Part shown: positions 5,778 through 15,596 of the stretch, one piece after another
Layout of the letters: every line of letters starts with the position of its first letter
Numbering within the stretch: the stretch's first letter is position 1
NCBI RefSeq assembly: GCF_030814215.1
Contig: NZ_JAUSUT010000001.1
Location: 4,650,001-4,714,000, forward strand
Origin: Amycolatopsis thermophila
GTDB taxonomy: Bacteria; Actinomycetota; Actinomycetes; Mycobacteriales; Pseudonocardiaceae
Reading direction: 5' to 3'
DNA length: 64,000 nt
Notes under the pieces: generated by a model
Told to the model about the DNA's origin: nothing
Database searches by the model: none
The model's input: only the letters and a program-made list of their open reading frames with translations
Program-made: the position numbers and the translations under genes

Positions 5778-5972
5778 TCAGCGGCGTTCGCTGGGGATGA
5801 TGACCCACAGCACGAGGTAGACCAGGAACTGCGGGCCGGGCAGCAGGCAGGACAGCACGAACAGCCAGCGCATCGTGCTGGGCTTCCAGCCGAGGCGGTG
5901 GGCCAGGCCGGCGCACACCCCGGCGATCACGCGATCGTGGCGGGACCTCGTCAGGGTCGTCGTTGTCGTCAT
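5778..5972 (-). CDS. PspC-domain small membrane protein
   Basis: 64 residues. The PspC signature is complete: R-SRHDRVIAGVCAGLAHRLGW, then PSTMRWLFVLSCLLPGPQFLVYLVLWVIIPSE, which has one long membrane segment with the usual P/G break. PspC domains take part in envelope-stress sensing; in actinomycetes such stand-alone copies are common and their partners are mostly unknown. ATG is at 5970-5972. The neighbour at 6032-6415 is in the same orientation, 59 bases upstream. Confidence 0.88.
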   Translation of the reverse strand: MTTTTTLTRSRHDRVIAGVCAGLAHRLGWKPSTMRWLFVLSCLLPGPQFLVYLVLWVIIPSERR

Positions 5973-6659: not shown

Positions 6660-8174
6660 GTGAAGCGATGGGTGCTCCTGCTCGCCCTCCTTCTGGTGGC
6701 GTGTGGAGCGCCGGTGCCCGCCCCGGCGCAGGACGTGGTGTCCCTGGGCGCCGGGCGCCTGCGCGGCACCGTGGCCGCGGATCACCGGTTGTTCCAGGGA
6801 ATTCCGTACGCGGCCCCGCCGATCGGCCCGCTGCGCTGGCGCCCGCCGCAACCCGTCGCGGCCTGGACCGGGGTGCGGGACGCGACCGCGCCCGGCGCGC
6901 GCTGCCCCCAGCCCGGCGCGGAGGGCAGCGAGGACTGCCTGTTCCTCAACGTCACCACGCCCGCCGACACCCACGAGCGGCACCCCGTGCTGGTGTGGGT
7001 CCACGGCGGCGCGTTCCTGGGCGGCAGCGGGGACACCTACGACGCGCGCGAGCTGGCCGCCCGCGGCGACCTGGTCGTGGTCACCCTCAACTACCGGCTC
7101 GGCGCGCTCGGCTGGCTGGCGCACCCCGCGCTCGCGCACGAGGGCGGGGCGGGCAATTTCGGCCTGCTCGACCAGCAGGCCGCGCTGCGGTGGGTGCGGG
7201 ACAACATCGCCGCGTTCGGCGGCGACCCGGCGCGCGTGACGGTCGCGGGCGAGTCCGCGGGCGCGATGTCGGTGTGCGACCACCTGGTGTCACCCGGATC
7301 GGCCGGGCTGTTCCGCGCCGCCATCGTCCAGAGTGGACCTTGCCAGGCGCACGCGACCGCCGCGGCCGCGGCGCAGGCCAGCACCGCCTACGCGGCGAAC
7401 GTCGGCTGTGCCGACCCGGCCACCGCGGCGAGCTGCCTGCGTGCCCTGCCGTTCGCCGCCCTGCTGACCGCACCGCGGTACTACGACCTGGCCGGGGTGC
7501 CGGTAGCGGGACCGGTGACCGGCGAGGCGCTGCTGCCCGCCAACCCGGTCGACGCGATCGCCTCCGGTGCCGCGGCGCGCGTTCCGGTGATGGTGGGCGT
7601 GACGCGAGACGAGTTCACCCTGTTCCTGGCTCAGCAGTACGCGGCGACCGGGAAGACGGTGACGGCGGCGGACTACCCGCCGGCACTGGCGAAGGTGTTC
7701 GGCGCCGGTGCGCCCGCGGTGGCCGGCGAATACCCGCTCGCCGCCTACGACTCCGCGCCGCGGGCGCTGGCCGCGGCGCTCACCGATTCGGCTTTCGCCT
7801 GCGTGGCCAGGGACATGGCGTCGTCGCTGTCGCGCACCGCGCCGGTGTACGCCTACGAGTTCGACGACCCGCACGCGCCGGCACCGGACTCGTTGTCGCG
7901 CACGCCGTTCCCACTGGGCGCGGCGCACAGCCTGGAACTGCCGTACCTGTTCGGCGACGGCCGGTCGCTGGACGACGGGCAGCGGCAGCTGTCGGCGGAG
8001 ATGATCGCCGACTGGGCGGCGTTCGTGCGCACCGGCGCGCCCGGCCCGGGCTGGCCCCGCTTCGACCCCGCCCACGAACAGGTCCGCACCCTCGCGCCCG
8101 GCGAGACCCAGGTGAGCGCCGGCTACGCGACGGCCCACCACTGTGATTTCTGGGCGGCTCACCGGCTCCGCTGA
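6660..8174 (+). CDS. Type B carboxylesterase lipoprotein
   Basis: 504 residues. The signal ends in a lipobox (VKRWVLLLALLLVAC, Cys15-16 region), so the enzyme is probably lipid-anchored outside the cell. The body is a type B carboxylesterase: oxyanion motif WVHGGAFLGGS, nucleophile elbow GESAGAMS, acid residue in RDEFTLF, and catalytic His in PLGAAHSLELPYLFG. EDCLFLNV is the family signature 2. The GTG 6660 start gives a proper signal sequence; earlier in-frame starts would place the signal internally. It hydrolyses carboxylic esters; the natural substrate is unknown. Confidence 0.92.
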   Translation: MKRWVLLLALLLVACGAPVPAPAQDVVSLGAGRLRGTVAADHRLFQGIPYAAPPIGPLRWRPPQPVAAWTGVRDATAPGARCPQPGAEGSEDCLFLNVTTPADTHERHPVLVWVHGGAFLGGSGDTYDARELAARGDLVVVTLNYRLGALGWLAHPALAHEGGAGNFGLLDQQAALRWVRDNIAAFGGDPARVTVAGESAGAMSVCDHLVSPGSAGLFRAAIVQSGPCQAHATAAAAAQASTAYAANVGCADPATAASCLRALPFAALLTAPRYYDLAGVPVAGPVTGEALLPANPVDAIASGAAARVPVMVGVTRDEFTLFLAQQYAATGKTVTAADYPPALAKVFGAGAPAVAGEYPLAAYDSAPRALAAALTDSAFACVARDMASSLSRTAPVYAYEFDDPHAPAPDSLSRTPFPLGAAHSLELPYLFGDGRSLDDGQRQLSAEMIADWAAFVRTGAPGPGWPRFDPAHEQVRTLAPGETQVSAGYATAHHCDFWAAHRLR

Positions 8175-8268
8175 GCTCCTCGGAACGGGCGCGCCGAACG
8201 TCGTTCGGTCCGCCGGGGCGACAGTTGTCACGCTGCGACGAAGTCCGGCGTTCGATAGGTTGTCCGGC

Positions 8269-9015
8269 GTGCGAAAGCGGATTCTGATCACGGGCGCCAG
8301 CGCCGGGCTCGGCGAGGAGATGGCGCGCCAGTTCGCGGCGCTGGGCCGGGACCTCGCGCTGTGCGCCCGGCGCGTCGACCGCCTGGAGGCCCTGCGCGAC
8401 GAACTGACGTCGGCGCATTCCGGTGTCGCAGTGGCGGTTCGCGGTCTGGACGTCACCGATCACGACGCGGTGTTCCGGGTTTTCCGTGAACTGCGCGACG
8501 AACTGGGCGGGCTGGACCGGATCGTCGTCAACGCCGGATCGGGCAAGGGGCAGCCGCTCGGGACCGGATATTTCGCCGCGAACAAGCAGACGGCGGAAAC
8601 GAACTTCGTCGCCGCACTGGCCCAGTGCGAGGCCGCGATGGAGATCTTCCGCGAGCAGGGCGCCGGGCACCTGGTGGTGATCTCGTCGATGAGCGCGATG
8701 CGCGGGCTGCCGCGCAACCTGACGACCTACGCGGCCAGCAAGGCCGGAGTGGCGGCGCTCGCCGAGGGCATCCGCGCGGACACCCTCGGCACGGGCATCA
8801 AGGTGACGACGGTGTTCCCCGGCTACATCCGCAGCGAGATGAACGCGCGGGTGGCGAAGACGCCCCTGCTGGTCGACACGAGGCCCGGCGTGCGCTCGAT
8901 GGTGAAGGCCATCGAGCGCGAACGCACGCAGGCCTACACGCCGGCCTGGCCATGGACGCCGCTCAGCCTGGCCATGCGGCACCTGCCACTCCGCTGGGTC
9001 GCGAAGTTCTCCTGA
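8269..9015 (+). CDS. Short-chain dehydrogenase/reductase
   Basis: 248 residues. The N-terminus has the cofactor motif LITGASAGLGEEMARQF (TGxxxGxG), then NAGS. The active site is ISSMSAMRG with YAASKAGVAALAEGI (Tyr-x-x-x-Lys), followed by FPGYIRSEMN. An Arg after the glycine motif region (CARRVDRLE) suggests NADP(H) preference. The basic C-terminus (PLSLAMRHLPLRWVAKFS) resembles the ends of the SDR group related to fatty-acyl or keto reductases. The start is GTG 8269; a TTG at 8260 is an alternative. It stands alone, 94 bases after the esterase. Confidence 0.88.
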   Translation: MRKRILITGASAGLGEEMARQFAALGRDLALCARRVDRLEALRDELTSAHSGVAVAVRGLDVTDHDAVFRVFRELRDELGGLDRIVVNAGSGKGQPLGTGYFAANKQTAETNFVAALAQCEAAMEIFREQGAGHLVVISSMSAMRGLPRNLTTYAASKAGVAALAEGIRADTLGTGIKVTTVFPGYIRSEMNARVAKTPLLVDTRPGVRSMVKAIERERTQAYTPAWPWTPLSLAMRHLPLRWVAKFS

Positions 9016-10456: not shown

Positions 10457-11146
10457 TCATGCGCCGGACGCCTCCCGGATCAGCCAGGCCGCGACGTCCC
10501 GCAACTTGACGTTGGCGTGCTGGGACGCCTCGACGAGCATGTCGAACGCCCGGTCGCCGTCGACGTGGTGGCGCTCGACGAGGATGCCCTTGGCCATGCC
10601 GATGGTGTCCCGCGTGTCCAGCGCGTCCACCAGCTGGGCCTGCTTGCGCGACCCGGACAGCGCGACCGCCGCGTGCGCCGCGAACATGCCCGCGACGGTC
10701 TCGGCGTCGTCGTCGAACGCGTCCGTCTTGCCCGAGTACAGGTTCAGCGCGCCGAGCACCGTGCGTTCGGTGTACAGGCGGACCGCCAGCATTGAGACCA
10801 CACCGAGCTCGGTGGCGGCGACGGTGAACTTCGGCCACCGGTCGTCGCGGTTGAGGTCGCCGCTGCGGTACAGGTCGCCCTCGAACGCGGCGTCGGTGCA
10901 CGGCCCCTCGCACAGTTCGTGCTGGACCTGGTCGAGCTTGGCGACCCGTTCGCTGCTCGGCCCGACCGAGCGCACCCGGCCGCGCTCCAGCAGCGTCACG
11001 CCCGCGTCTTCGGCGCCGGGCACCATCGTGATGGCCGCCCGCACCAGGCGGCCCACGGTCTTCGTCACGTCCGGTTCCGGTTCCAGGCGCCGGGCGACCG
11101 CGGCGAAGGCCGTGGCGAGGTCGGCGGTCTCGTCGTGGGCGGTCAT
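10457..11146 (-). CDS. GAF-ANTAR domain regulator (second copy)
   Basis: 229 residues. The GAF domain spans about 20-160 (LVRAAITMVPGAEDAGVTLLERGRV ... LNLYSGKTDAFDDDAETVAGMFAAHAAVAL). The ANTAR domain spans about 170-225 (ALDTRDTIGMAKGILVERHHVDGDRAFDMLVEASQHANVKLRDVAAWLI). The ATG at 11144-11146 with a GAGGGG box is preferred over the upstream open frame. Like the copy at 1383-2123 it is expected to bind RNA hairpins and antiterminate, but the two GAF domains are clearly different in sequence. No obvious target leader is adjacent. Confidence 0.9.
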   Translation of the reverse strand: MTAHDETADLATAFAAVARRLEPEPDVTKTVGRLVRAAITMVPGAEDAGVTLLERGRVRSVGPSSERVAKLDQVQHELCEGPCTDAAFEGDLYRSGDLNRDDRWPKFTVAATELGVVSMLAVRLYTERTVLGALNLYSGKTDAFDDDAETVAGMFAAHAAVALSGSRKQAQLVDALDTRDTIGMAKGILVERHHVDGDRAFDMLVEASQHANVKLRDVAAWLIREASGA

Positions 11147-11182
11147 CCCCTCACTGTCCCCGCGCGAGGACCCCCCGTCCAC

Positions 11183-12904
11183 TCAGGCGCGGATTTCGTT
11201 GAGGTAGTTGTAGATCGTGTAGCGGGTGACCTCGAGCTCGGCCGCGAGGAAGTCGACCGCGTCCTTGATGAGGAAGAACCCGGCCTCGTCCAGCTCGCGC
11301 ACCACCGCCGCCTTGTGCTTCTTCTTCATCAGCCCGACCGGGATCCCGGTCTGCGCCACGGCCCGGTCGACCAGGAACCGCTGCAGGCTGTCCACGTCGG
11401 GCGGGAAGCTCTCCGCCCGCACCTCGGCCGCGGCACCGCGGCTGACCTCGCTGTTCACGCACAGGCAGCCGATCGCCACGCCGTCGGGGTCGCGCAGGAA
11501 GATCGTCGACGACCGGATCGGCCTGCCGTCGGGGCCGTGGGTCTCGTAGTTGGTCAGGTCGTGCGTGGTGCCCCGCCGCACCAGCCCGAGCAGCAGGTCG
11601 GTCATCGGCCCGCCGGGCTCCCGCCCGGTGATGCCGCCCGCGATCGCCACGATCGAGTCCGGCAGCTTGGACAGGTCGTGCAGCACCACCTCGTTGCCCG
11701 GCCCGAGCATGGCGGCCAGCCCGTCCACGGCCGGGACCAGCGCGGACAGCACCGAGCCGGCCGCCTGCGCGGCGGTCCGCGGCCGGGACGGCAGCGGCCG
11801 GGACAGGTGCTCCAGCGCGGTGCGGACGGCCTCGGCGGCCGACGCGGGCGTGGACGCGTGCGGGGACAACCGCACGTGGTCGGTGCGGACGGTCGCCGCG
11901 ATGCCCTCCGCCGCCAGCACCGCCCCGACCCGCTCCGCGGAATGCCCGGGCAGGGCGAACGCGAGGATCCCGGCGCGGCGGTCGACCGCGGAGACGATCT
12001 CCGCGCCCAGCGAGCGCAGCATTTCCTCCAGCTCACCGACCCGGTCGGCGATCCGGGCCTCGATGGCCGCCACCCCGGCCTCCTCGACCAGTTCGAGCGC
12101 CGCCGCGAACGCGCCCGAGGTGACCGGGCTGAGGTTGCTCACCGACCACGACGCGGCGAACTCGGCCGGCGGGTGGATCTCGTCGTCGAACAGGCCCGCG
12201 TCGTGCGCGCCCGTCCAGCCGGACAGCACCGGCCGCATGCGTTCCAGCGCCCGGTCCGACAGCACCGCGAACCCGGTTCCCCAGCCGGCGCGCAGCCACT
12301 TCTGCCCGCCGACGACCAGCACGTCGGCCGCGTCCCACGGCGCGTCGACCACGCCGAAACCCTGGATGCCGTCGACCACGAGCAGGCGGTCGCCGACCGT
12401 CTCCCGCAACGCGGCGAGGTCGGCTCGGTAGCCGGTGCGGAAGTCGACCGCGCTGACCGACACCACCGCGGTGTCCGGCCCCAGCTCCGCGGCGACGGCC
12501 TCCGGCGTGACGTACCCGTCCTCCGGCCGCATCCGGCGCAGCGTGACCCGCCCGGCCTCGTGGGCGCGCGCCCACGGGTAGGTGTTGGCCGGGAACTCGG
12601 CTGCCGACACCAGCACCTCGCCGGGCGGGGCGTTGAACGCGGCCTGGAACAGGCCCTGGCTGGTGTTGGGCAGCAGCACCACGTGATCGGTGTCGGTGCC
12701 GCACAACCGGGCCACCGCGGCCTTCGCGCGGACCTCCTGCCGCATCAGATCGTCCACAGTGGAGGGACCGGCCTTGGCCGAGGAGTTCAGCAGGCGCGCG
12801 GTGGTGTCCACGACCGCGTGCGAGGGCGGGCCGTAGCGGGCGAAGTCCAGGTAGCCCGCGGGCTCGTCGAACTGGAGCAGGTAGCTGGGCGGGATCCTGG
12901 CCAT
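11183..12904 (-). CDS. Class V aminotransferase fused to a YheO/DauR-type PAS-HTH regulator
   Basis: 573 residues. Residues 1-378 form a fold-type I PLP enzyme of the class V (isopenicillin-N epimerase/CsdA-like) group, with the PLP-aspartate in LLVVDGIQGFG (Asp178) and the Schiff-base lysine in GGQKWLRAG (Lys202). Residues about 385-500 are a YheO-like PAS domain (VLHDLSKLPDSIVAIAGGITGR). The C-terminus is the DauR-type HTH (DAVDFLAAELEVTRYTIYNYLNEI). The start overlaps the stop of the ABC ATPase gene by one base, so it is the last gene of an amino-acid uptake operon. The fusion suggests an enzyme that also controls transcription of the operon; that link is inference. Confidence 0.9.
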   Translation of the reverse strand: MARIPPSYLLQFDEPAGYLDFARYGPPSHAVVDTTARLLNSSAKAGPSTVDDLMRQEVRAKAAVARLCGTDTDHVVLLPNTSQGLFQAAFNAPPGEVLVSAAEFPANTYPWARAHEAGRVTLRRMRPEDGYVTPEAVAAELGPDTAVVSVSAVDFRTGYRADLAALRETVGDRLLVVDGIQGFGVVDAPWDAADVLVVGGQKWLRAGWGTGFAVLSDRALERMRPVLSGWTGAHDAGLFDDEIHPPAEFAASWSVSNLSPVTSGAFAAALELVEEAGVAAIEARIADRVGELEEMLRSLGAEIVSAVDRRAGILAFALPGHSAERVGAVLAAEGIAATVRTDHVRLSPHASTPASAAEAVRTALEHLSRPLPSRPRTAAQAAGSVLSALVPAVDGLAAMLGPGNEVVLHDLSKLPDSIVAIAGGITGREPGGPMTDLLLGLVRRGTTHDLTNYETHGPDGRPIRSSTIFLRDPDGVAIGCLCVNSEVSRGAAAEVRAESFPPDVDSLQRFLVDRAVAQTGIPVGLMKKKHKAAVVRELDEAGFFLIKDAVDFLAAELEVTRYTIYNYLNEIRA

Positions 12905-13668
12905 CAGAGGATGCGCGCCAGGAACTGCCGGGTGCGCTCGTGCCGGGGCGCGCCGAGGACCTGCGCGGGCGGCCCGGTCTCGACGACCGCGCCGTCGGCC
13001 ATGAAGACGACCTCGTCGGCCACCTCCCGCGCGAACCCCATCTCGTGTGTCACGACCACCATTGTCATCCCTTCGGCCGCGAGCGAGGTCATCACCTCCA
13101 GGACCTCGCCGACCAGTTCCGGGTCCAGCGCCGAGGTCGGCTCGTCGAACAGCATCAGCTTCGGTTTCATCGCCAGCGCCCGCGCGATCGCGACCCGCTG
13201 CTGCTGGCCGCCGGAGAGCTGGTCGGGGTGGGCGTCCGCGCGGTGGGCGAGACCGACCCGGTCGAGCAGGTCCATCGCCGTCCGGCGGGCTTCGGCCTGG
13301 TCGAGCCCGCGCACCCGCACCGGGCCCTCGGTGACGTTCTGCAGCACGGTCCGGTGCGCGAACAGGTTGAACCGCTGGAACACCATGCCGATGTCCCGGC
13401 GCTGGCGGGCGACCTCCCGCTCGCGCAGCTCGTGCAGCTTCCCGCCGCGCAACCGGAACCCGATCGGCTCACCGTCCACCCACACCTGACCGCCGTCGAT
13501 GGTCTCCAGGTGGTTGACGCAGCGCAGGAACGTGCTCTTGCCCGCACCGGACGGCCCGAGCAGGCACACCACCTGTCCCTTGTGGACCGACAGGTCGATC
13601 CCGCGCAGCACCTCGGTGCCGGCGAAGTGCTTGCGCACGTTGACCGCGCGCAGCAGCGGCTCGGTCAT
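12904..13668 (-). CDS. Polar amino-acid ABC transporter ATP-binding protein
   Basis: 254 residues with all ABC motifs: Walker [12 protein letters not shown]-loop [13 protein letters not shown], signature [15 protein letters not shown], Walker [17 protein letters not shown] and H-loop [10 protein letters not shown]. The [11 protein letters not shown] and [17 protein letters not shown] strings are typical of the PAAT (GlnQ/HisP) subfamily. It energises the permease encoded one base upstream (13670-14581). The order substrate-binding protein, permease, ATPase, aminotransferase-regulator indicates one operon. Confidence 0.95.
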
Positions 13669-13669
13669 G

Positions 13670-14581
13670 TCAGGCCCTCCGCAGCGTCGTCAGCGCCCGG
13701 CCGACCCGCGACCACGGCCGTGCCGCGGGCGTCTCGGACGCGAACGCGCGTTCCAGGTAGTGCTGGCCGATGCTGGCCACGGTGACCACGACCATGTACC
13801 AGATCGCCGCGGCCAGCAGCGTCTCCATCACCAGCAGGTTGTTCGACGAGATGTTGTTGGCCGCGTGGATGAGCTCGGTCACGCCGATCACCGATGCCAT
13901 CGACGTCCCCTTGAGCATGTTGATGAAGTCGTTGCCGGTGGGCGGGATGATCACGCGCATGGCCTGCGGCAGCACGATCCGGCGCAGCGTCGTGGCCGGG
14001 GTCATGCCGATCGACTTCGCCGCCTCGGTCTGCCCGCGGTCCACGCTGTTCAGGCCCGCCCGCACGATCTCGGCCATGTAAGCGCTCTCGTTGAGCGCGA
14101 GCCCGAGCAGGGCGGCGACGAACGCGCTGACGATGACGTTGGTCGGCTCGTGCACCAGGTAGCCGCCGCCGAAGGGCAGCGGGATCGACACGAACTCGAA
14201 CACCAGCGCGAGGTTGAACCAGATCAGGATCTGCAACAGCACGGGCAGGCCGCGGAACAGCCAGATGTAGACCGCGGCCACGACGCGGGCGACGGGGTTG
14301 GCCGAGCGGCGCATCAGCGCGATCACGACACCGATGACGATCGCGGCGGCCTGTGCGATCACGGCGAGCAGCACCGTGTTGAGCAGGCCGACGGCCATCA
14401 CGCGGTACCAGAGGAACTCCGGCACGGTGTCGTAGGCGATCTTCGCCCGGGCCAGCACCACCCCGATCCCGGCCAGCAGCGCCAGGATGACCACCGCCGA
14501 CACCCACCGGCCCCAGTGCCGCAGGCGCACGATGGGAAGCTCGGCCGGTGGCGTGCGGGTGGACAGGTCAGCTTCCGGCAT
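13670..14581 (-). CDS. Polar amino-acid ABC transporter permease
   Basis: 303 residues. A cytoplasmic N-terminus precedes about five or six membrane helices (first about 27-44). The HisM/GlnP-type BPD motif is near residues 180-215 ([42 protein letters not shown]), the EAA loop that docks onto the ATPase. It overlaps the 3' end of the substrate-binding protein gene by 14 bases (14568-14581). The single permease presumably acts as a homodimer. Confidence 0.94.
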
Positions 14582-15521
14582 TGACGGTCACCTTCGTGAT
14601 CGCGCCCTGCTCGACGCCCCACGCGTCGAGGATCTTGCCGTAGGTGCCGTCGGCGACCAGCGCGGACAGCGCCTTCTCGACCGCGTCGCGCAGCTGCGGG
14701 TTCGCCTTGTTCACACCGATGCCGTACGGGCCGCCGTTGATCGGCTCGCCCGGTACGACCTCGAAGAACTCCCCGTTGCCCGCGTTCTTCGAGACGTAGG
14801 CGGCGGTCGGCAGGTCGTTGAGGATGGCGGCGACGCGGCCGGTGCGCAGCTGGTTCTGGTTCTGCGAGTCGCTGTCGGTGGCCGTCGTGGTGATCGCCGG
14901 CTTGCCCGCCTGCACGCACCGGGTGCTCTGCTCGGCGGCGAAGGTCTGGTGGCTGGTGCCCTGGACGACCGCGACCGTCTTGCCGCACAGCGAATCCGGC
15001 CCGGTGATGCCGTCCGGGTTGCCCTTGCGCACCATGATCGTGATGCCCGAGGTGAAGTAGTCCACGAAGTCGATCTGCGCCTGGCGCGCCTTCGTGTCGT
15101 TCATCCCGGCCATCGTGAGGTCGAGCCGGCCGGACTGCAGGCTCGTGATCAGCGAGCCGAACGCCATGTCCGTGTGGTGCGCGGTGACGCCCAGTTTGGC
15201 CGCGACGGCCTTCGCGATGTCCACCTCGAAGCCGACCGGCGTCTTGCCGTCCGCGGAGTAGAAGTTGTTCGGCGCGGACTGGATGTTCGAGCCGATGTTG
15301 AGGGCGCCGGCCTGCGCGATCTGGGCCGGCAGCGCGGCGGCGAGCTGCGGGTCCTTCGTGACGGCCTGCAGGATCGCCGTGGTGTCGGGCACGTCCGAAC
15401 CGGTCGCGGCGGCGCCCCCGGTGCCCCCGGCTCCGTCGGACCCGCCGCCGCAGGCCGCCGTGAGCAGCAGACAGCCGACGACCAGCGCGCCCCAGCGCGT
15501 CACCCGTGCCCTCGCAGACAT
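14568..15521 (-). CDS. Amino-acid ABC transporter substrate-binding lipoprotein
   Basis: 317 residues. The signal has a lipobox (GCLLLTAAC, Cys24 region) followed by a Gly/Ser-rich linker. The rest is a family 3 solute-binding protein: FYSADGKTPVGFEVDIAKAVAAKLG, then SGRLDLTMAGMNDTKARQAQIDFVDYFTSGITIMV, then KTVAVVQGTSHQ and a C-terminal AYVSKNAGNGEFF...PYGIGVNKANPQLRDAVEKAL. A GAGGAG box sits just upstream of ATG 15519-15521. It is the first gene of the operon, so the tandem repeats at 15562-15596 lie in its promoter region. The amino acid bound cannot be deduced. Confidence 0.93.
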   Translation of the reverse strand: MSARARVTRWGALVVGCLLLTAACGGGSDGAGGTGGAAATGSDVPDTTAILQAVTKDPQLAAALPAQIAQAGALNIGSNIQSAPNNFYSADGKTPVGFEVDIAKAVAAKLGVTAHHTDMAFGSLITSLQSGRLDLTMAGMNDTKARQAQIDFVDYFTSGITIMVRKGNPDGITGPDSLCGKTVAVVQGTSHQTFAAEQSTRCVQAGKPAITTTATDSDSQNQNQLRTGRVAAILNDLPTAAYVSKNAGNGEFFEVVPGEPINGGPYGIGVNKANPQLRDAVEKALSALVADGTYGKILDAWGVEQGAITKVTVNAGS

Positions 15522-15561
15522 CGCATCTCCTCACCCGTTCGAATGATGAGGACGGACGCTA

Positions 15562-15596
15562 CAACTGCTTGTTGAAGACGTCAACTGCCGGTTGAA
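15562..15596. promoter_or_regulatory. Tandem operator-like repeats upstream of the amino-acid ABC operon
   Basis: Two 15-bp direct repeats, CAACTGCTTGTTGAA (15562-15576) and CAACTGCCGGTTGAA (15582-15596), are spaced exactly 20 bp apart, about two helical turns. Each is itself an inverted repeat (CAAC-N5-GTTG). They lie 41-75 bases upstream of the start of the substrate-binding protein gene. A natural candidate ligand is the YheO-type HTH of the last gene in the operon (inference). Confidence 0.7.

Follow-up and report, generated by a model that had tools for sequence, protein, structure and literature searches.

The locus studied here raises the question of whether a metabolic enzyme can be built into the regulator that controls the import of its own substrate. 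It lies in a window of 64,000 nucleotides from Amycolatopsis thermophila, where the original prediction had placed a PLP enzyme and a YheO/DauR-type regulator in one reading frame, within an amino-acid ABC transporter operon. The fusion itself is borne out by a single 573-residue open reading frame, in which three Pfam domains score above their cut-offs:

11183..12904, minus strand: fusion protein, 573 aa, class V PLP enzyme followed by YheO-type PAS_6 and HTH_22 (uninterrupted ORF, Pfam)
11807..12904, minus strand: PLP-enzyme half, residues about 1-366, with Thr81, Ser82, Phe104, Asp178, Gln181, Lys202 and Arg345 (Pfam, alignment)
11435..11746, minus strand: PAS_6 (YheO-like) domain, residues 387-490 (Pfam)
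11198..11374, minus strand: HTH_22 DNA-binding domain, residues 511-569, ending TRYTIYNYLNEIR (Pfam)

When both halves were searched, as had been suggested, Aminotran_5 was matched at residues 30-338 (E 2.4e-27, 96.3 bits against a cut-off of 21.5), followed by PAS_6 at residues 387-490 (E 2.4e-29, 102 bits against 27), its profile covered almost end to end, and HTH_22 at residues 511-569 (E 3.4e-20, 72.3 bits against 29.6). The C-terminal half thus has the order PAS_6 then HTH_22 that marks YheO/DauR proteins, while the Aminotran_5 match and the invariant PLP lysine and aspartate (K202, D178), located just where they had been predicted, place the N-terminal half in class V. In a sequence search of the PDB the YheO half found no match at E 0.01, and the predicted structure of the fusion (pTM 0.63) leaves the packing of the domains uncertain.

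Is the fusion real? The probability of an artefact, in the form of a frameshift or a chance joining, is close to nil, since 84 distinct full-length fused proteins are known and all three domains are under purifying selection as judged by dN/dS; this confirms the fusion as old and genuine, and an artefact is ruled out. Scanning one genome per species, we found 77 loci, 68 of them with the full-length fusion, and genes for the solute-binding protein (SBP), permease and ATPase (more than 55% identity) lie beside it in 68/68. At the remaining nine (L095-L097, L099, L100, L103, L105-L107) the enzyme is present but these transporter genes are missing. Among 43 shorter loci there were 41 full fusions, each with an adjacent ATPase gene (41/41). 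The proposed survey of fused against split genes thus left the fusion and its linked operon standing, and unfused versions of the enzyme exist widely in other genomes. At the level of the family, 145/297 genomes have some match at E 1e-20 and 84/297 a full fusion, by a hand count that combines 83 near-full-length rows with one genome in two pieces. Among the named genera with full fusions are Amycolatopsis, Pseudonocardia, Saccharothrix, Umezawaea, Kibdelosporangium, Lentzea, Actinosynnema, Herbihabitans, Nocardia and Mycobacterium/Mycolicibacterium. A sample of 396 genomes from across the phylum gave 10 matches besides the source genome, all confined to the enzyme half.

The three genes that precede the fusion are as follows:

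14568..15521, minus strand: solute-binding lipoprotein, SBP_bac_3 (Pfam)
13670..14581, minus strand: ABC permease, BPD_transp_1, HEQRo type (Pfam, NCBIfam)
12904..13668, minus strand: ABC ATPase of a polar amino-acid importer (Pfam, NCBIfam)

The operon therefore reads SBP-permease-ATPase-fusion on one strand, with the fusion as its last gene and its start sharing one base with the ATPase stop. As had been predicted, this is an amino-acid ABC context, with a single permease and a single ATPase accompanying a family 3 SBP; the combination of an SBP_bac_3 protein with a family permease (TIGR01726, 59.5 bits against 42.2) and an ATPase is that of a HAAT importer. Polar amino-acid transporter models were the best matches, and every transporter equivalog cut-off was missed, so no substrate is assigned. 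The nearest solved structures of the SBP are binding proteins of the glutamine/arginine type; its N-lobe carries Asn79, at a position where glutamine- and lysine/arginine-binding proteins have an aspartate. The SBP also has two cysteines (Cys179 and Cys202, hand-counted) that at least 97% of the 73 aligned sequences share and that perhaps form a disulfide. Directly after the fusion lies a GAF-ANTAR gene (Pfam; 10457-11182, minus strand), a neighbour that is present in L010 and L035 and unmatched in L033.

The site that had been proposed at 15562-15596, in front of the SBP gene, turned out to be exactly a tandem palindrome, the predicted operator, which falls on a putative promoter:

15582..15596, minus strand: operator palindrome O1, TTCAACCGGCAGTTG (motif scan)
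15562..15576, minus strand: operator palindrome O2, TTCAACAAGCAGTTG, 20 bp from O1 and inside the promoter spacer (motif scan)
15579..15584, minus strand: probable -35 box TTGACG, overlapping the right arm of O1 (by eye; absent from the consensus promoter scan)
15556..15561, minus strand: probable -10 box TAGCGT, TANNNT type (by eye; conserved in the operator-region matrix, absent from the consensus scan)

With up to 3 mismatches allowed across the 20 fixed positions, the tandem TTCAAC-N5-GTTG was found upstream of the SBP gene in 69/69 regions (the window and 68 loci) compared with 0/4140 controls simulated from a first-order Markov model. The repeats are spaced by 20 bp in 64 loci and by 22 bp in five fused loci. 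In the source genome the exact tandem pair occurs once, the other matches being the same site read on the opposite strand (2 mismatches) and one further match with 3 mismatches. Single palindromes occur 14 times on both strands compared with 7 for a reversed-pattern control, which makes the tandem pair the informative unit.

How the operator is distributed was assessed in 119 loci with context (111 distinct), picked for their resemblance to the window protein; because of their common ancestry, the counts are not independent events. PAS, HTH, transporter and operator occur together in 68 of the 111 distinct loci, and the enzyme alone in 32. A further five combine HTH and operator without PAS or transporter, three have transporter and enzyme without HTH or operator, and three (L168, L183, L189) have the operator without HTH or transporter. 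The operator is thus present in 73/73 distinct loci with an HTH compared with 3/38 without one, implying that it follows the HTH, not the transporter. The PAS domain, by contrast, tracks the transporter, which accompanies 68/68 distinct PAS loci and 0/5 of the HTH loci that lack a PAS. In the enzyme-only locus L168 the exact tandem operator is retained (8143-8330, minus strand), and the ATG behind it opens a sequence resembling the signal peptide of an SBP, as though the transporter genes were excised.

Taken together, these data indicate that the fused regulator probably switches its own amino-acid import operon. As to the direction, the two boxes are 17 bp apart, with O1 overlapping the -35 box and O2 filling the spacer. 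An HTH bound at O1/O2 might help RNA polymerase or realign the boxes, and the conserved position of O2 within the spacer could suit a spacer-binding activator; yet with O2 between the boxes and O1 over the -35 box, occlusion is favoured, and the YheO-type protein Cj1387c is described as a repressor of the adjacent RidA-type gene (PMC4519771). We therefore give activation little credence. Repression fits this overlap and the action of Cj1387c, and it is reasonably probable, judging from sequence, that the protein couples a PLP enzyme covalently to a local autorepressor acting on the importer operon. Within this reading, we regard the local autorepression as very likely. Against it stand the five fused loci with a spacing of 22 bp, not 20, the retention of the operator without an HTH in L168, L183 and L189, the uncertain domain packing, the possible decay of the short forms described below, and the putative promoter boxes, since the stricter consensus scan listed no promoter at the operator region. 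The unfused enzyme also counts against it, being widespread and kept where HTH and operator were lost, so that it does not need the regulator.

What does the enzyme half contribute? T81, S82, F104, D178, Q181, K202, R345 and H349 are invariant in 84/84 distinct fused proteins, and the active-site residues are common to the fused and unfused versions of the enzyme. Compared over residues 1-377 of the fusion protein, the solved structures that come nearest are those of cysteine desulfurases, C-DES and PvdN. In SufS and CsdA, the active-site cysteine sits on a C-terminal loop and a histidine stacks on PLP. The window enzyme is only about 20% identical to these class V proteins (SufS/CsdA, C-DES, PvdN); the sole cysteine of residues 1-372 is Cys68, the His-His pair of SufS is replaced by Phe104-Pro105 ('EHHAN' aligning with 'EFPAN'), and NCBIfam sufS gives 60.7 bits against a cut-off of 475. 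We rejected a cysteine desulfurase identity, as the active-site cysteine and the PLP-stacking histidine are absent and the sufS score is below its cut-off. Instead, the N-terminal half looks like a PLP enzyme capable of catalysis; within class V it would fall in the cysteine-desulfurase/lyase-like branch and lack the desulfurase catalytic cysteine. An enzyme domain that binds PLP and an amino acid with no turnover has a precedent in EnuR, whose PLP-binding enzyme domain mediates dimerisation and binds the inducer through PLP, and in which Lys302His yields a constitutive repressor (PMC8739950). For the fusion such a dead sensor, as in MocR, seems quite improbable, given that the unfused versions have the same active-site residues and that at three loci the operon carries an unfused enzyme with a LacI-type regulator next to it, suggesting that its activity is what the operon needs. 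If the fusion is an autorepressor, its enzyme half is likely to be active.

The identity of the substrate was approached from several sides. The link to the D-arginine/DauR pathway suggested by the original prediction did not hold up: the operon contains no such catabolic gene, and neither the SBP comparisons (glutamine/arginine-type structures) nor those of the enzyme (cysteine desulfurases, C-DES, PvdN) gave any sign of it, leaving D-arginine unsupported as a substrate. The neighbourhood of unfused enzymes gave no substrate either, the genes beside ten scanned neighbours being mutually unrelated (DUF3500, P450 and FAD oxidoreductase; elsewhere PhoH, undecaprenyl synthase and cholesterol oxidase; and others). 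Genus g13 has a fusion of this enzyme with another partner, a zinc alcohol dehydrogenase of the HpnZ type (L167, 7004-9223, and L194; in L167, TIGR03366 at 365 bits against a cut-off of 328), at loci without transporter, HTH or operator; the HpnZ cut-off was exceeded in 2/14 genomes searched and was not reached in the source genome.

Natural deletions bear on the roles of the domains. In L166, L182, L184 and L185 a linker, short or repetitive, connects the enzyme directly to HTH_22, and the PAS is missing (Pfam-confirmed for L166, L182 and L184; from tblastn and its sequence for L185) and no transporter nearby. In all five transporter-less HTH loci the operator lies 46-136 bases before the enzyme gene; in the fifth, L096, the gene is broken by stops. 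Since the sequence just upstream of L184 and L185 resembles the pre-SBP region of full-length Saccharothrix relatives, these two lost transporter and PAS while keeping promoter, enzyme and HTH. In a tree of 71 proteins, with seven distant rows left out (another tree used 56/114 distinct proteins), L184/L185 lie apart from the L182/L166 group, each nested among fused proteins, indicating that this loss happened in at least two lineages. The HTH is under purifying selection on dN/dS values of 0-0.12 in four full-length pairs and 0.18-0.38 in three short-form pairs. The enzyme gives 0.31-0.34 in short forms compared with 0.18-0.21 in full-length ones, and the linker 0.2-3.9 overall and 0.72-1.17 in short-form pairs. 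As enzyme and HTH both have higher values in the short forms, these may be decaying, with partial relaxation possible.

A regulator exchange is seen in another family of the order, in one genus of which seven genomes had matches and three were fetched (L160-L162). Here the SBP-permease-ATPase-enzyme order is kept, at 52-74% identity, with an unfused enzyme and without YheO half or operator, and a LacI-type gene comes first (Pfam-confirmed in L161, from sequence in L162, a like-sized ORF in L160). The link between enzyme and importer thus stands without YheO, and in this operon the regulator seems to have been exchanged.

These variants bear on where the signal is sensed. The PAS alone might sense, as in stand-alone YheO/DauR proteins, with the enzyme attached for co-expression and having no effect on DNA binding. 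The PAS_6 domain is matched almost end to end and conserved (dN/dS 0.04-0.40), it is found only with the transporter (68/68 against 0/5), and in many genomes the enzyme does without the regulator. Plain tethering is nevertheless rather unlikely in our view, as four enzyme-HTH proteins without a PAS, in which the PAS cannot sense, keep the operator and a conserved HTH. In these the signal could be carried by nothing but the enzyme half, unless they are constitutive repressors. Within the autorepressor reading, we consider the case for and against the enzyme half taking part in sensing to be evenly balanced. The enzyme half may be a trigger that senses its own substrate, which the PAS-less forms with enzyme, HTH and operator make likelier. 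The stronger form of this idea, in which the enzyme half is itself the sensor and substrate on PLP ends repression of the importer, the protein measuring flux through its active site, is a serious but somewhat doubtful possibility. Under it, L166, L182, L184 and L185 would be the minimal sensor form, a MocR-like device of separate origin, built from another class of PLP enzyme and another HTH placed at the opposite end of the protein.

For the autorepressor, we propose the following scheme. HTH dimers would bind O1 and O2 on the same DNA face (20 bp, two turns), covering the -35 box and spacer and so repressing SBP, permease, ATPase and fusion, its own gene included. The enzyme half would act on what is imported, whether the amino acid itself or a product formed from it, and import of the substrate would lift repression through the PAS domain, through PLP chemistry in the enzyme half (an external aldimine or a shift in PLP/PMP balance), or through the two together. 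A fold type I enzyme half should dimerise, so that a ligand-driven change in the dimer could be passed to the paired HTHs: the imported amino acid would go onto PLP in the enzyme half, the dimer would change, the HTH pair would leave O1/O2, and the operon would turn on. The fusion may thus be, in Amycolatopsis and its soil-dwelling relatives, a new combination of parts, a protein that senses what it consumes. If so, transcription factors built on PLP enzymes have at least two origins, from different parts, here with an enzyme that seems to retain its catalytic residues. The loci would then offer a natural series for testing the roles of the domains (the enzyme by itself, the enzyme with an HTH, the enzyme-PAS-HTH form with its importer, and the enzyme with importer and a LacI-type regulator), with a single predicted operator in the one genome scanned.

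Turning to known systems, the C-terminal 190 residues of the fusion have the PAS_6 and HTH_22 architecture of YheO, Cj1387c and DauR, the last listed as a regulator of dauBAR with the same two Pfam families (PMC7789669). Unlike these, it is fused behind a PLP enzyme, its operon has no gene for RidA or D-arginine dehydrogenase, and its PAS can be lost. A class-level search with the YheO half matched 4/345 genomes at E 1e-30, the source genome included. Among nine stand-alone YheO loci (L170, L172-L179), an operator with at most one mismatch was found only in L173, and the more distant L203-L205 had no convincing site. The YheO gene of L173 is 52% identical to the fused half, and a single TTCAAC-N5-GTGG site (5830-5844) lies between it and a divergent SBP_bac_5 gene. 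In L172 (521-8174), separate neighbouring genes encode a YheO-type regulator, a PLP enzyme of class V (32% identical) and RidA. These three, which are oriented divergently to a dipeptide-type ABC transporter, form a possible split counterpart of the fusion. The source genome has a second YheO-type gene (L170, 2198456-2199073; 45% identical), with a different recognition helix, beside a zinc carboxypeptidase M14 gene. In the open-access literature searched, whose coverage is limited, we found no description of a class V enzyme fused to YheO/HTH_22; PMC4519771 gives PAS_6 'five different architectures', among which the present one may be.

A functional parallel is with MocR, GabR and EnuR, in which a DNA-binding domain is coupled to a PLP-enzyme domain of fold type I, the promoter is overlapped by repeated boxes on one DNA face, and the genes often lie beside transport and catabolic genes (PMC5320631, PMC6677901, PMC8739950). 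The fusion shares the joining of a fold type I PLP enzyme to a DNA-binding domain, the tandem boxes over a putative promoter and the transport genes, and the PLP-lysine is conserved as well (Lys202, 84/84 distinct fused proteins). It differs in its predicted palindromic operator and in keeping the catalytic residues. Moreover, whereas MocR proteins have an N-terminal GntR winged helix and a class I (aspartate aminotransferase) domain, the Pfam scan of the fusion gave only Aminotran_5, PAS_6 and HTH_22, with the class V enzyme first and the HTH at the C-terminus, and its best families are Aminotran_5 and cysteine-desulfurase-like. By its domains and predicted operator, then, the fusion is a protein that works like MocR but lacks two of its defining features, the GntR HTH and the class I domain.
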